Source: Verrucomicrobiota bacterium
GTDB taxonomy: Bacteria; Verrucomicrobiota; Verrucomicrobiia; Opitutales; Opitutaceae
Direction: 5' to 3'
DNA: 40,477 nt
NCBI GenBank assembly: GCA_030605125.1
Contig: JAUWBD010000020.1
Location: 1-40,477, forward strand
Position 1 is the stretch's first letter; the number at the start of each line of letters is the position of its first letter. The notes beneath the pieces are model-generated. The model was given only the letters and a program-made list of their open reading frames with translations. It was not told where the DNA came from and ran no database searches. The translations under genes were made by a program, and so were the position numbers. Below, piece after piece: positions 1-4,396 of the stretch.

Positions 1-348
1 CTCGCCGAAGCGCAGGGTCATCCACTCCGCGGTGGTCATCACGCCGGCGCGCCGGTGCCACTTGCCCATGAAGGCGAGGAAGACCGCGATCGGCAGCACC
101 ACGCCGCCGCGAAACTCGATGAAGAAACCCTGCAGACCGTAAACCGTGAGCAGCGTGACAATCGTCATCGTGCCCGCGACGTCGAGATTGCTCGACATGC
201 CCGAGGCGCCCAGCGCCCACCACGGCAGTTTTCGGCCGCCGAGGAAGTAGTGCTCGCTACTCGCCCCCGCCCTTCGCGCGAGCCAGAAGCCCGCCACCGC
301 CAGCCCGACCAGATACACGGAAACCACAAGGTAATCAACGGGGTGCAT
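1..348 (-). CDS. Sodium:solute symporter (SSS family), N-terminal part
   Basis: The reverse strand starts with ATG at 348 and reads 116 codons without a stop to the window edge, so the C-terminal three quarters are missing. The N-terminus has a hydrophobic segment (VDYLVVSVYLVGLAVAGFWL), then an SSS-type motif FLGGRKLPWWALGASGMSSN (about residues 39-58) and a second membrane segment. The FLGGR-LPWW pattern followed by a glycine/serine-rich unwound helix is typical of Na+-coupled sugar and other solute transporters of the inner membrane. The substrate cannot be told from this fragment. It is transcribed away from the sucrose-type phosphatase/invertase gene at 583, so a sugar substrate is possible but only inferred. 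Confidence 0.85.
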   Translation of the reverse strand, partial: MHPVDYLVVSVYLVGLAVAGFWLARRAGASSEHYFLGGRKLPWWALGASGMSSNLDVAGTMTIVTLLTVYGLQGFFIEFRGGVVLPIAVFLAFMGKWHRRAGVMTTAEWMTLRFGE

Positions 349-582: not shown

Positions 583-2676
583 ATGCCCGCCATCCGACTT
601 TTCAGCGCCGACCTCGACGGCACGCTCCTCGGCAATCCCGAGGCCACCCGCCGTTTCGCCACCGCCTGGACCTCGCTGCCGCCCGCGCGCCGCCCGCTCC
701 TCGCCTACAACAGCGGCCGCCTCGTGGACGACATGCGCGGGCTCGTCGCCGACGGGCTCCTCCCCGAGCCCGACTTCTACCTCGGCGGCGTCGGCACCCA
801 AATCCACGACGCCCGCGCCGGCAAGGACCTCGAGGAGTTCTCCAAGCACCTCTCCTCCGGCTGGGACCGCGCGCTCGCCGAGTCCATCATCGCCGCCATC
901 CCCGGCGCGCACCCGCAGCCCGCGGAGTTTCAACACGCCTTCAAGTCCAGCTGGTTTCTCCACCACGCTACGCCCGAGGTCATCCAGGAAATCCGCGCCC
1001 GGCTCGGCGGCGCCGGGCTCGCCGTGCAAGTCGTGTATTCAAGTTCTCGCGACCTCGACATCCTCCCCGCCGCCGCGACCAAGGGCGGCGCCCTCCGCTG
1101 GCTCTCGCGCCGCCTCGGCATCGAGTTCTCGCAGATCCTCGTCGCGGGCGACACCGGCAACGACGCCTCGATGTTTCTCCTCCCCGGCGTGAAGGGCATC
1201 ATCGTCGAAAACGCCCTCCCCGAGCTCTTCGCCGCGACGGTGGACATCCCCATCTACACCTCGCGCCGCGTCATGGCCGACGGCGTGCTCGACGGCCTCC
1301 GCCACCACGGCGTGCTCACCGATCTCCCCGGCGCCGCGCAGACCGAGATCTCGGCCGCGCAGATGGCTCCCGGCTTTCGCCTGCTCTTCACCGGCGCCCG
1401 CCTCGGCGCGCTCAACGACGACGAAAAGGCCTTCCTCCTCACCGCCCACGAAAAGGCCCTCGTCGCACTCCGAAAAAACCTCACCCCGCGCGGTTTCTCC
1501 GCCTGCTCGCTCGACGACAACACCGTCACCGGCACCGACGCCAACTACCGCTCCGTCTGGGCGCGCGACGGCGCCATCACCCTCATCAATACCCTCCATC
1601 TCAAGGATCCCGACATCTGCGCCGCCCGCCTCGCCACCCTCGAGACGCTCCTTGGCGCCATCTCCCCCGCGGGCCAGATCCCCGCCAACGTCCGCATCGA
1701 CGACGGCTGCCCCGACTACTCCGGCGTGGGCAACATCTGCTCCATCGACAGCGGCCTCTGGGTCATCATCGCGGTGTATAACTACGTCTCCCAGACCGGC
1801 GACATCGAGTTCCTCCGCCGCCACGCGCTCGACCTCCAGCGCGCCATGGACTGGCTCTCCGCGCACGACAGCAACAACGACGGCCTGCTCGAGATCCCCG
1901 AGGCCGGCGACTGGACCGATCTCTTCGGCCGTTCCTACAACGTCCTCTACGACGAAGTCCTCTGGTTCCGCGCCAACGTCTGCTACGGTCGCATCCTCGA
2001 GCTCCTCGGCGAGTTCACCCGCGCCGCCGACTACCTGCGCTGGTCGCAGCGCATCCGCGGCCGCCTGCTCGACGCTTTCTGGCCCAGCACCTCGGCCAAG
2101 CCCTCCGACCCGCATTCCGTGCACCGCTTCGCCGACCGCCAGCACGGTCTCGGCGACACCCAATACCTCCTCGCCGAAATCACCCCCTTCTCCTTCAACT
2201 GGCGCTGCGACGTCTTCGGCAACATCCTCGCCTTCCTCATGCACGTCCTCGACGTGGACCGCGCTCGCGTCGCCTTCCGCTTCATGTGGGGCGCCGGCGT
2301 GAACAACCCCTGGCCCGTGGCCAACCTCTACCCGGTCGTGCAGGCCGGCGATCCCGACTGGCGCGCCTACTACACGGTCAACCTGCTCAACCTCCCGCAC
2401 CACTACCACAACGGCGGCGTCTGGCCCTTCGTCGGCGGCATGTGGGTGCGCTTCATCCACCGGCTCGGCTTCCACGAGGTCGCCGCGCGCGAACTGCTCA
2501 AGCTCGCCAAGCTCAACCAGCTCGGCCGCGACCAGGAGTGGGAGTTCAACGAGTGGGCCCACGGCCAGACCGGCCGCCCCATGGGCAAGGCCTTCCAGGC
2601 TTGGTCCGCCGCCACCTTCCTCCGCGCCTGCCACGAGATCGAGGCCGACCCGAAGCACCTCGCGGGGGACGACTGA
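583..2676 (+). CDS. HAD-family (sucrose-phosphatase-like) / GH100-like invertase fusion protein
   Basis: 697 residues in two parts. Residues 1-250 are a HAD-IIB phosphatase: motif I DLDGTLLG with D10 and D12, motif III lysine in TKGGAL (K167), motif IV GDTGND (189-194), as in sucrose-6-phosphate phosphatase. Residues 290-690 form an alpha/alpha-barrel hydrolase. RSVWARDG (323-330), SIDSGLW (387-393), HYHNGGVWPF (607-616) and NEWAHGQTG (656-664) match the order and wording of neutral invertase (GH100) motifs. D389 and E657 are candidate catalytic residues by analogy. Such proteins are often auto-annotated as amylo-alpha-1,6-glucosidase, which is the main alternative. No signal peptide, so cytoplasmic. 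A PfkB kinase follows at 2813, which fits release and phosphorylation of fructose. The fusion itself is read directly from one uninterrupted frame; the sucrose substrate is inferred. Confidence 0.85.
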   Translation: MPAIRLFSADLDGTLLGNPEATRRFATAWTSLPPARRPLLAYNSGRLVDDMRGLVADGLLPEPDFYLGGVGTQIHDARAGKDLEEFSKHLSSGWDRALAESIIAAIPGAHPQPAEFQHAFKSSWFLHHATPEVIQEIRARLGGAGLAVQVVYSSSRDLDILPAAATKGGALRWLSRRLGIEFSQILVAGDTGNDASMFLLPGVKGIIVENALPELFAATVDIPIYTSRRVMADGVLDGLRHHGVLTDLPGAAQTEISAAQMAPGFRLLFTGARLGALNDDEKAFLLTAHEKALVALRKNLTPRGFSACSLDDNTVTGTDANYRSVWARDGAITLINTLHLKDPDICAARLATLETLLGAISPAGQIPANVRIDDGCPDYSGVGNICSIDSGLWVIIAVYNYVSQTGDIEFLRRHALDLQRAMDWLSAHDSNNDGLLEIPEAGDWTDLFGRSYNVLYDEVLWFRANVCYGRILELLGEFTRAADYLRWSQRIRGRLLDAFWPSTSAKPSDPHSVHRFADRQHGLGDTQYLLAEITPFSFNWRCDVFGNILAFLMHVLDVDRARVAFRFMWGAGVNNPWPVANLYPVVQAGDPDWRAYYTVNLLNLPHHYHNGGVWPFVGGMWVRFIHRLGFHEVAARELLKLAKLNQLGRDQEWEFNEWAHGQTGRPMGKAFQAWSAATFLRACHEIEADPKHLAGDD

Positions 2677-2686
2677 AACCCGACCT

Positions 2687-2774
2687 CGTTCTCGTTCTCT
2701 TACTCTTGCTCGTTCTCCCGCCGTAGGCGGGACCAGATGTGACGGAGTCGAGAACGAGTAAGAGAACGAGAACG
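2687..2774. repeat. Palindromic intergenic element, copy 2
   Basis: Outer arms CGTTCTCGTTCTCTTA (2687-2702) and its exact reverse complement (2759-2774) are identical to those of the element at 427-520. An inner hairpin CCCGCC-GTA-GGCGGG spans 2717-2731. The loop sequence differs from copy 1 while the arms are conserved, which suggests that the arms are under structural or mobility constraint. It begins 10 bases after the stop codon of the phosphatase/invertase gene. Confidence 0.8.
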
Positions 2775-2812
2775 ATTCAATCAGCCACCTCACACCCGCA
2801 CGCCTTCTGCCC

Positions 2813-3697
2813 ATGCCCACCCGCCCTCTCCTCTGCTACGGCGAAATCCTCTGGGACTTCCTCCCCGAAGGGCTCTTCGCCGGCGGCGCGCCGGCCAACG
2901 TCGCCTACCACCTCGCCCGCCACGGGCGCGACGTGCGACTCGTCTCCGCCGTGGGGCGAGACGCGCTCGGCGATGAGCTGCTGCGCCGCCTCCGTCATTG
3001 GGAGCTGGATACGGCGCTTGTCGCCCGCCACGCCGGCCTGCCCACCGGCTCGGTCATCGCCGAGCTCGGCGCCTCCGGCGACGCCCGCTACGAGATCGTG
3101 CAGTCCGTCGCCTGGGACCAGATCCCCGCTGGGCCCGACGCCCTCCAGCTCGCCACCACCGCCGCCGCGCTCGTCTTCGGCACCCTCGCCCTCCGCTCCT
3201 CCTTCAACCGCGCCGCGCTCGACCGCCTCCTCGCCACCCTGCCCGCCGAGGCCGTGCGCGTCTTCGACGTCAATCTCCGCGCCCCGCACGACGACCTCGA
3301 TCTAGCCCGCGCCATCGCCCCGCGCGCCACGCTCCTCAAGGTCAACTCCGCCGAGGCCGCCCGCCTCGCCGATGACGCGCAAGGCGAGCGCCCCGGCGCC
3401 GAGGAGGGCCACGCCCGCGCCCTCTTCGCCCGCCACGGCTGCCCGCTCATCCTCGTCACCGCCGGCCAGCGCGGCGCCGGCCTACTCCGCGACGGCCTGC
3501 TCTGGACCTGGGAGCCCGGCCGCGAGGTCGAGGTGGCCGACACCATCGGCGCCGGCGACGGCTTTCTGGCCTGCTTTTTGCACCACCTCCTTTCCGGCCG
3601 GAGCTCCGACGGCGAGCTCCTCACCCGCGCCTGCCGCCACGGCGAATGGATCGCCACGCGGCGCGGCGCCACCCCGGCCTACCCACCGCCGTCCTAG
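2813..3697 (+). CDS. PfkB-family carbohydrate kinase (fructokinase-like)
   Basis: 294 residues, normal length for a ribokinase/PfkB sugar kinase. The N-terminus has GEILWDFLPEG (10-20) and the substrate-binding GGAPANVAYHLARHG (24-38), the wording usual for fructokinases. The C-terminal PfkB signature is DTIGAGDGFLACF (243-255) with the anion hole GAGD and D249 as catalytic base. It would phosphorylate a free sugar, most likely fructose to fructose-6-phosphate with ATP, in the cytoplasm. It follows the phosphatase/invertase gene by 136 bases, separated only by a palindromic element, so the two probably act on the same sugar. Substrate specificity is inferred from motif similarity and context. 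Confidence 0.9.
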   Translation: MPTRPLLCYGEILWDFLPEGLFAGGAPANVAYHLARHGRDVRLVSAVGRDALGDELLRRLRHWELDTALVARHAGLPTGSVIAELGASGDARYEIVQSVAWDQIPAGPDALQLATTAAALVFGTLALRSSFNRAALDRLLATLPAEAVRVFDVNLRAPHDDLDLARAIAPRATLLKVNSAEAARLADDAQGERPGAEEGHARALFARHGCPLILVTAGQRGAGLLRDGLLWTWEPGREVEVADTIGAGDGFLACFLHHLLSGRSSDGELLTRACRHGEWIATRRGATPAYPPPS

Positions 3698-3745
3698 AAA
3701 ACTGAATACACACGCCAAAAACACCCGCACCACACCCGCCATACA

Positions 3746-4396
3746 ATGGACACCTCCTACCTTCCCGACCTCCACGCGCTCACCCGCGCCGCCTTCACCG
3801 CCCTGCCGCTCGCCCTCCTCGTGCTCGTCGGCGCCGCCATCGTCCAGGTCCTCATCGTCCGCGGTCTCAACCTGATCGCCGACCGCGCGCACCTCGCGCC
3901 CACGGATCTGCTGCCCGTCCGCAAGGTCCTCAAGGCGCTGCTCTACGTCGTCACCGCCATTCTCATCCTCACCGTCTTCGGCGTAAACCTCGGCGGTCTC
4001 TGGGCCATCCTCTCCACCGTCCTCGCCATGGTCGCGATCGGCTTCGTGGCCGTGTGGAGCCTTCTGAGCAACGTCTCCAGCACGGTGATCATCCTGCTCT
4101 TCCGCCCCTTCGCCGTCGGCGACGAGCTCGAGTTCGCGGGCGAGCCCGTGAAGGGCAAAGTCGTGGACCTCAATTTCCTCTACACCACGCTCCAAGCCGC
4201 GGACGGCGCCCTGTTTCAAATCCCGAACAACCTCTTCTTCCAAAAATCGCTCAAGCGCCGTCGCAGCCTGGTTCCCGTCAGCCTCGCCGAGCAACTCAAC
4301 CGCCGCGAGGCCGCACCCGCCGCCATCGACCCCGGCTCGGTGATGGCGAAACCCGCCGACTCTGGCGCCTCCGCCAAGTCGATGGACGCGGAGTGA
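3746..4396 (+). CDS. Small MscS-family mechanosensitive channel
   Basis: 216 residues. Membrane segments lie near 16-38, 50-72 and 76-95. The last continues into the pore-lining helix and the MscS hallmark FRPFAVGDELEF at about 119-130 leading to the beta domain (VKGKVVDLNFLYTTL, then FQIPNN). The protein stops soon after the beta domain with a KRRR-rich, low-complexity tail, so the alpha/beta part of the cytoplasmic vestibule found in E. coli MscS (286 residues) is missing. It sits in the inner membrane and should release solutes on osmotic downshift. It starts 48 bases after the kinase, same strand, and may be co-transcribed with the sugar genes. Confidence 0.88.
   Translation: MDTSYLPDLHALTRAAFTALPLALLVLVGAAIVQVLIVRGLNLIADRAHLAPTDLLPVRKVLKALLYVVTAILILTVFGVNLGGLWAILSTVLAMVAIGFVAVWSLLSNVSSTVIILLFRPFAVGDELEFAGEPVKGKVVDLNFLYTTLQAADGALFQIPNNLFFQKSLKRRRSLVPVSLAEQLNRREAAPAAIDPGSVMAKPADSGASAKSMDAE

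Follow-up and report, generated by a model that had tools for sequence, protein, structure and literature searches.

The window analyzed here is a stretch of 40,477 nucleotides, contig JAUWBD010000020.1 of a Verrucomicrobiota bacterium (family Opitutaceae) whose draft genome consists of 271 contigs and 4.88 Mb. Near its start, a single ATG-to-stop frame on the forward strand (positions 583 to 2676, 697 amino acids) joins a sucrose-phosphate phosphatase (SPP) domain to a glycosidase domain resembling glycoside hydrolase (GH) family 100. The phosphatase domain, of the HAD-IIB type, spans residues 5 to 243 (595 to 1311). It is followed by a linker at about residues 244 to 278 (1312 to 1416), with bounds judged from the predicted structure, and by the (alpha/alpha)6 glycosidase domain at about residues 279 to 697 (1417 to 2673). 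The linker is a lower-confidence stretch of the model, and the next long helix starts at residue 279. Genes for a probable fructokinase and a mechanosensitive channel lie immediately downstream.

Two domains in one reading frame

The fusion is real. Of 71 related loci, 39 have the two domains in a single frame, which rules out chance read-through or an assembly error as a credible source. Among the 39 is one fusion cut by a contig end (L115), which was counted but stands outside alignment A1 and the tree. Loci not counted as fusions were one with SPP and GH in different frames, probably through a frameshift (L124), the fragments L125, L136, L143, L147 and L153, close but unfused GH loci (L118, L119, L121, L122 and L123), distant GH loci (L128 to L131 and L151) and 16 loci with SPP only. 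Alignment A3 took in 34 of 38 fusions.

Assignment of the phosphatase domain draws on Pfam, structure and invariant residues. The Pfam S6PP family (PF05116) matches residues 5 to 243 at 5.1e-60 (203.5 bits against a cut-off of 20.3), and the fusion is the sole S6PP match in the draft genome (one match; eight candidates scored). Its nearest solved sequence is the Synechocystis sucrose-phosphatase (3e-29), which is also the best structural match of the full-length model (Foldseek 1.6e-17; VIA Z 29.9, root-mean-square deviation 2.9 over 239 residues). D10, D12, T14, K167, G189, D190, N193 and D194, the last four within the GDTGND motif at residues 189 to 194, are invariant in all 39 rows of an alignment of the window protein and 38 relatives. 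An earlier sequence-only reading of this DNA had recognized a HAD phosphatase and a GH100-like domain on one frame, and this stands, with both Pfam families over their cut-offs and D10/D12, K167 and GDTGND correctly placed.

The glycosidase domain was assigned from Pfam, a profile search and structure comparison. Pfam Glyco_hydro_100 matches the window protein at 1.8e-16 (60.4 bits, cut-off 23.6), its best stretch being limited to residues 526 to 684 (profile positions 274 to 430 of 435), and an MGH1-like family also matches the C-terminal part (3.6e-7). When a profile of 23 GH domains was compared with solved sequences, InvB (3e-20), InvA (4e-19) and plant CINV1 (3e-15) ranked first, and the GH133 enzyme 7vma reached 0.012. 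For the domain modelled alone (mean predicted local distance difference test score, pLDDT, 80.6), rows 1 to 28 of the best 50 Foldseek rows are all GH100 chains (4e-12 to 7e-11), with glucosylglycerate hydrolase next at 2e-9. VIA likewise placed GH100 in rows 1 to 7 (Z 34.1 to 36.8), with 33.2 for the eighth row and 30.8 for the GH133 enzyme; the full-length model did not separate GH100 from other families in VIA, and a family missing from any of these structure lists was not taken as absent. Profile and model comparisons support a glycosidase half closest to the GH100 alkaline/neutral invertases, with an (alpha/alpha)6 fold, perhaps as a GH100-like subfamily of its own or a sister family.

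Excerpts of a study of InvA name D188, E414 and Arg430 as catalytic residues (PMC10661998). In the profile alignment, where the InvA chain numbers run one higher than in that source by manual count, catalytic Asp188 aligns with D446 of the fusion (codon 1918 to 1920) and Glu414 with E657 (codon 2551 to 2553). Neither residue varies in any of the 39 fusion rows or, as D184 and E395 of the domain alignment, in any of 45 rows that include distant relatives. Conservation is higher in the GH half than in the SPP half at every one of the 39 loci, with mean identities to the window of 71% and 57%, respectively. This conservation makes it very improbable that the second domain is an inactive sucrose sensor that regulates the phosphatase, even though such arrangements have precedents: most cyanobacterial sucrose-phosphate synthases (SPS) carry an inactive phosphohydrolase domain, and some fusions of trehalose-phosphate synthase and phosphatase are regulatory only (excerpts of PMC6753628 and PMC1769515, respectively).

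Two other identities were considered for the domain. The GH94 enzymes in the VIA lists suggested an inverting phosphorylase, which is disfavored: the position corresponding to the GH100 base Glu is retained, and such phosphorylases are not known to have this base. A plain glycogen-debranching domain is disfavored by the solved-sequence profile search and Foldseek, and Pfam alone leaves room for it.

Linkage to sucrose-phosphate synthase

The fusion, in most loci, and its close unfused counterparts travel with SPS. In a survey of 150 genomes of the same family, both halves were found in 37, as one match spanning both in 36 and as two pieces on two contigs in genome G058 (a manual count from the survey rows). 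Two further genomes have the GH end alone (G126 and G119), and one has SPP alone (G005). SPS was found in 39 of the 150, namely, all 37 with both halves plus G126 and G005; in the remaining 110 genomes, SPP, GH and SPS were not found at the match levels used. Of the 39 fusion loci, 36 have SPS within about 2 kb on the strand of the fusion; the gap does not exceed 300 bases in 33 (median 65.5) and reaches up to 1.9 kb in the others. SPS is not in the locus in L087, L094 and L115, the last of which is cut by a contig end. All 16 SPP-only loci contain SPS as well. Because the organisms of the 150-genome survey overlap with those of the 71-locus collection, the two sets of counts are not independent. 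In a wider sample of 288 genomes of the phylum, GH100 was matched at E 1e-6 in 25, every one of which is also a genome with a match to the window protein.

The sequence-only reading had proposed looking for SPS in the source genome, and its N-terminal half is there, a fragment of 225 residues with 84% identity to the best relative, at the edge of another contig (C103). Two candidates for its continuation (L007 and L003) were judged by eye to be other glycosyltransferases. A search for GH32 gave no match in the source genome.

These data bear on the proposal, made in the sequence-only reading, that joining the last step of sucrose synthesis to hydrolysis would be futile for making sucrose and hence belongs to osmolyte disposal. 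According to that proposal, the fusion merely degrades sucrose-6-phosphate and sucrose at osmotic downshift and has no role in synthesis. A hydrolase sharing a chain with the phosphatase would indeed remove the product, and an MscS-type channel does adjoin the fusion. Against this, every one of the 37 same-family genomes that carry both halves has SPS, which is adjacent to the fusion in 36 of 39 loci, and the source genome has no other S6PP match. With SPS as part of the module and the fusion as the sole S6PP match, a disposal-only role is unsupported, and we regard it as quite unlikely.

Close relatives of the glycosidase that are not fused keep the same company. Five such genes, 55 to 61% identical, occur in loci whose records are labelled Pirellulales, Planctomycetota and Nealsonbacteria, and all five loci contain both SPP and SPS, although four of the five genes lie on the strand opposite these two. 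In two genomes of the same class (G380 and G310), SPP, SPS and GH are three consecutive genes. In a 56-row tree of GH domains, built by a quick method with SH-aLRT support only and leaving 15 of 53 inner branches open, a single change divides the fused forms from the unfused ones, in a direction (fusion or fission) that the tree does not distinguish. Its rows are the window protein, 38 fusions of the locus set and 5 others, 5 plus 2 unfused close GH domains and 5 distant ones, and the rows nearest to the window protein are Opitutaceae. Fused rows carry the labels Verrucomicrobiota, Bacteroidota (including the isolate Lewinella cohaerens), Chloroflexota, Planctomycetota and Acidobacteriota; the majority come from metagenome bins, whose taxon labels may be wrong.

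Several loci showed further arrangements of these domains. An SPS with a C-terminal SPP-like domain lies beside the fusion in L112 (10049 to 12268), L159 (8538 to 10736) and L160 (4627 to 7110) and beside a stand-alone SPP in L156 (7245 to 9659), so that some sucrose clusters hold two SPP-type domains. In G126, a 470-amino-acid open frame (contig C217, 2816 to 4147) seemingly joins an N-terminal part of SPS (query residues 2 to 171) to a C-terminal part of the GH domain (425 to 694) and looks like the product of a deletion or misassembly. A MarR-family regulator gene lies directly upstream of SPS in L118 (11439 to 12068, reverse strand) and L121 (6389 to 6979, forward strand), both Pirellulales-labelled sucrose loci with an unfused glycosidase.

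Genes and repeats around the fusion

Downstream of the fusion, positions 2813 to 3697 of the forward strand encode a PfkB-family kinase of 294 amino acids (PF00294, 1e-35). Its nearest solved structure is 2qhp, annotated 'Fructokinase' (1e-47). The kinase scores below the NCBIfam fructokinase cut-off (NF006957, 68.6 of 450 bits), and a ribokinase model scores slightly higher (72.8 of 299.65 bits). Nearest structure and context together make it a probable fructokinase, in line with the fructokinase-like PfkB neighbor described in the sequence-only reading. The next gene (3746 to 4396, forward strand) encodes an MscS-family mechanosensitive channel of 216 amino acids (PF00924, 6.7e-13, 49 bits against a cut-off of 20.2), one of three PF00924 matches in the draft genome. 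The adjacent channel noted from sequence was thus correctly recognized, and its homologue recurs at other fusion loci. The protein is short, with little beyond the beta-domain, which ends near residue 168; MscS chains of 171 amino acids are also among its solved-structure matches.

Presence of the two neighbors elsewhere was scored by BLAST at E 1e-8 against the window proteins, in loci some of which end soon after the fusion. A kinase homologue was found in 16 of 39 fusion loci. An MscS homologue was found in 10 of 39, versus 0 of 16 SPP-only loci in the same search. The channel gene follows the kinase in six loci (L090, L092, L095, L126, L127 and L152) and lies 3 kb downstream in L087, between SPS and the fusion in L088 and L117, and before SPS in L103.

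Upstream of the fusion, and divergent from it, a sodium:solute symporter gene is cut by the contig end, leaving its N-terminal part (1 to 348, reverse strand; PF00474, 1.2e-8). A hairpin-forming element of GAACGAG/GTTCTCG repeats flanks the fusion gene on both sides in inverted orientation (425 to 521 and 2685 to 2775), with 90-nucleotide arms that are 86% complementary and a DNA folding z of about -8. Its 26-nucleotide core occurs 38 times in the draft genome with up to 3 mismatches, compared with 0 for a reversed control; the element is a dispersed palindromic repeat.

Proposed sucrose turnover, its alternatives and known systems

The locus is a sucrose module of a known type in which, unusually, two steps that would oppose each other are fused. 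We consider it probable that the protein is a bifunctional SPP/sucrose hydrolase within a module for sucrose synthesis and turnover that serves osmotic adjustment. SPS, adjacent in relatives and on another contig in the source genome, would form sucrose-6-phosphate, which the N-terminal HAD domain would dephosphorylate to sucrose. Using Asp446 as acid and Glu657 as base, the C-terminal GH100-like domain would then cleave sucrose to glucose and fructose, and the neighboring kinase could convert the fructose to fructose-6-phosphate. Such a module should make sucrose and probably cleaves it as well. Together, the fusion and the MscS channel would constitute a unit for turnover of sucrose as an osmolyte, in which sucrose accumulates as long as cleavage is restrained, for instance by a high internal ion level, and is removed once cleavage is released.

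Several observations weigh against this interpretation. Among the genomes listed, five of the same genus lack the fusion gene as well as SPS. In the source genome, SPS is not adjacent to the fusion, and a second SPS half was not found there, the best match being 37% and taken to represent other GT4 enzymes. A kinase homologue is missing from 23 of 39 fusion loci and an MscS homologue from 29 of 39, some of them contig-cut. The phosphatase half falls below the NCBIfam equivalog cut-offs (TIGR01485, 141.2 of 183.65 bits; TIGR02471, 117.5 of 209.75; TIGR01482, 78.1 of 107.15), and for that reason the name SPP is taken from family, structure and context rather than from an equivalog match. The model is poor around D446, with pLDDT under 50 in both the full-length and domain-alone versions, so that active-site geometry is not readable from it; the loops of low model confidence are residues 441 to 451, 502 to 538 and 588 to 604.

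The remaining objections concern the substrate of the second domain, and they favor an enzyme for another glycoside, such as glucosylglycerate, a sucrose derivative or an alpha-glucan, that would link sucrose synthesis to a different sugar. In the Foldseek rows, identity between the domain and GH100 structures is just 18 to 22%. GDE_C, a GH133-type family, also exceeds its cut-off (1.5e-11, 44.3 bits against 21), and GH63-type matches occur. Across 23 members of the family, GDE_C and GH100 both match every one, with best E values of 5.5e-20 and 2.1e-19, respectively; in the window domain itself, Pfam favors GH100. The sequence-only reading had named a better fit to GH133 or GH15 than to GH100 as grounds for rejecting its assignment: neither the solved-structure profile search nor Foldseek bears this out, and Pfam alone is less clear. 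Arg430 of InvA, as named in the excerpts of its description, could not be mapped in the fusion; by manual count, the Arg closest to that number in the InvA alignment falls within three residues of InvA that are missing from the fusion family. Five distant GH genes (37 to 40% identity) have no SPS in their loci, and two of these loci (L151 and L131) adjoin importers of the sugar ABC type together with GH35 or GH78 genes, as judged by simple gene calling, which took the wrong strand in some high-G+C loci, with Pfam checks in which several neighbors had no Pfam match. On the other side, GH100 is closest among solved structures, and the close relatives, whether fused or unfused, accompany SPS and SPP. 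Action on another glycoside is a minority prospect, one we take more seriously than disposal or an inactive sensor.

How a sucrose-making and sucrose-cleaving protein might be controlled is suggested by Synechocystis. Ions act there in opposite directions, stimulating the enzymes of synthesis and inhibiting the invertase, which loses nearly half of its activity at 75 mM NaCl; a mutant in the invertase retains more sucrose (excerpts of PMC6753628). By the same logic, we infer that the fused protein may be switched by internal ions. A more speculative extension, which we advance tentatively, is a one-chain osmostat in which the SPP and hydrolase domains are gated oppositely by ionic strength or by sucrose and sucrose-6-phosphate, with MscS as a fast release valve. 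One polypeptide would then toggle between finishing synthesis and cleaving its product and so set the steady-state level of sucrose. Bifunctional kinase/phosphatase enzymes that set the level of a metabolite offer a parallel.

If the proposed bifunctional role is correct, two opposing steps are locked one to one in a single chain, and the fusion may help set the cell's level of a protective sugar. It would offer a simple and testable system for asking how cells maintain a pool of solute without running a futile cycle. Alkaline/neutral invertases have been called limited to cyanobacteria and plants (excerpts of PMC6753628), and the present data point to GH100-like intracellular invertases well beyond those groups. 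For Verrucomicrobiota, the osmolyte named in an excerpt of PMC13274419 is glycine betaine, and in PMC6920513, from a search on osmolytes of this phylum, the word 'sucrose' does not occur in the main text. An SPP-invertase fusion was not found described in the open-access literature, in titles and abstract openings among the matches listed.

In the systems compared, synthesis and breakdown of a compatible solute reside on separate proteins. One parallel already known is the spsA-sppA-frkA-amsA operon of Synechococcus PCC 7002 (excerpts of PMC11046441), which likewise clusters a sucrose-cleaving enzyme with sucrose synthesis, phosphatase and fructokinase. There, however, four separate proteins are involved and cleavage is by amylosucrase, whereas here the cleaving enzyme is invertase-like and joined to the phosphatase. 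InvA, InvB and CINV1 share the fold and the aligned catalytic Asp and Glu but are stand-alone proteins, set apart by their low identity and by the unmapped Arg. The phosphatase half resembles Synechocystis SPP and the two-domain SPS-SPP proteins in pairing an SPP domain with HAD catalytic residues. Fusion of SPP-type domains to SPS is already known (excerpts of PMC9971976 and PMC6753628); in contrast, the partner here is a glycosidase for probably the pathway's own product. The msc-gt-tpsp operon of Thermoproteus tenax (excerpts of PMC3634074) likewise combines a mechanosensitive channel with a fused enzyme for a disaccharide solute, within a make-and-release model of stress response. That operon, as the excerpts describe it, concerns trehalose and a synthase-phosphatase fusion with no degrading enzyme, whereas the fusion described here would bring synthesis and degradation of the solute together in one protein.

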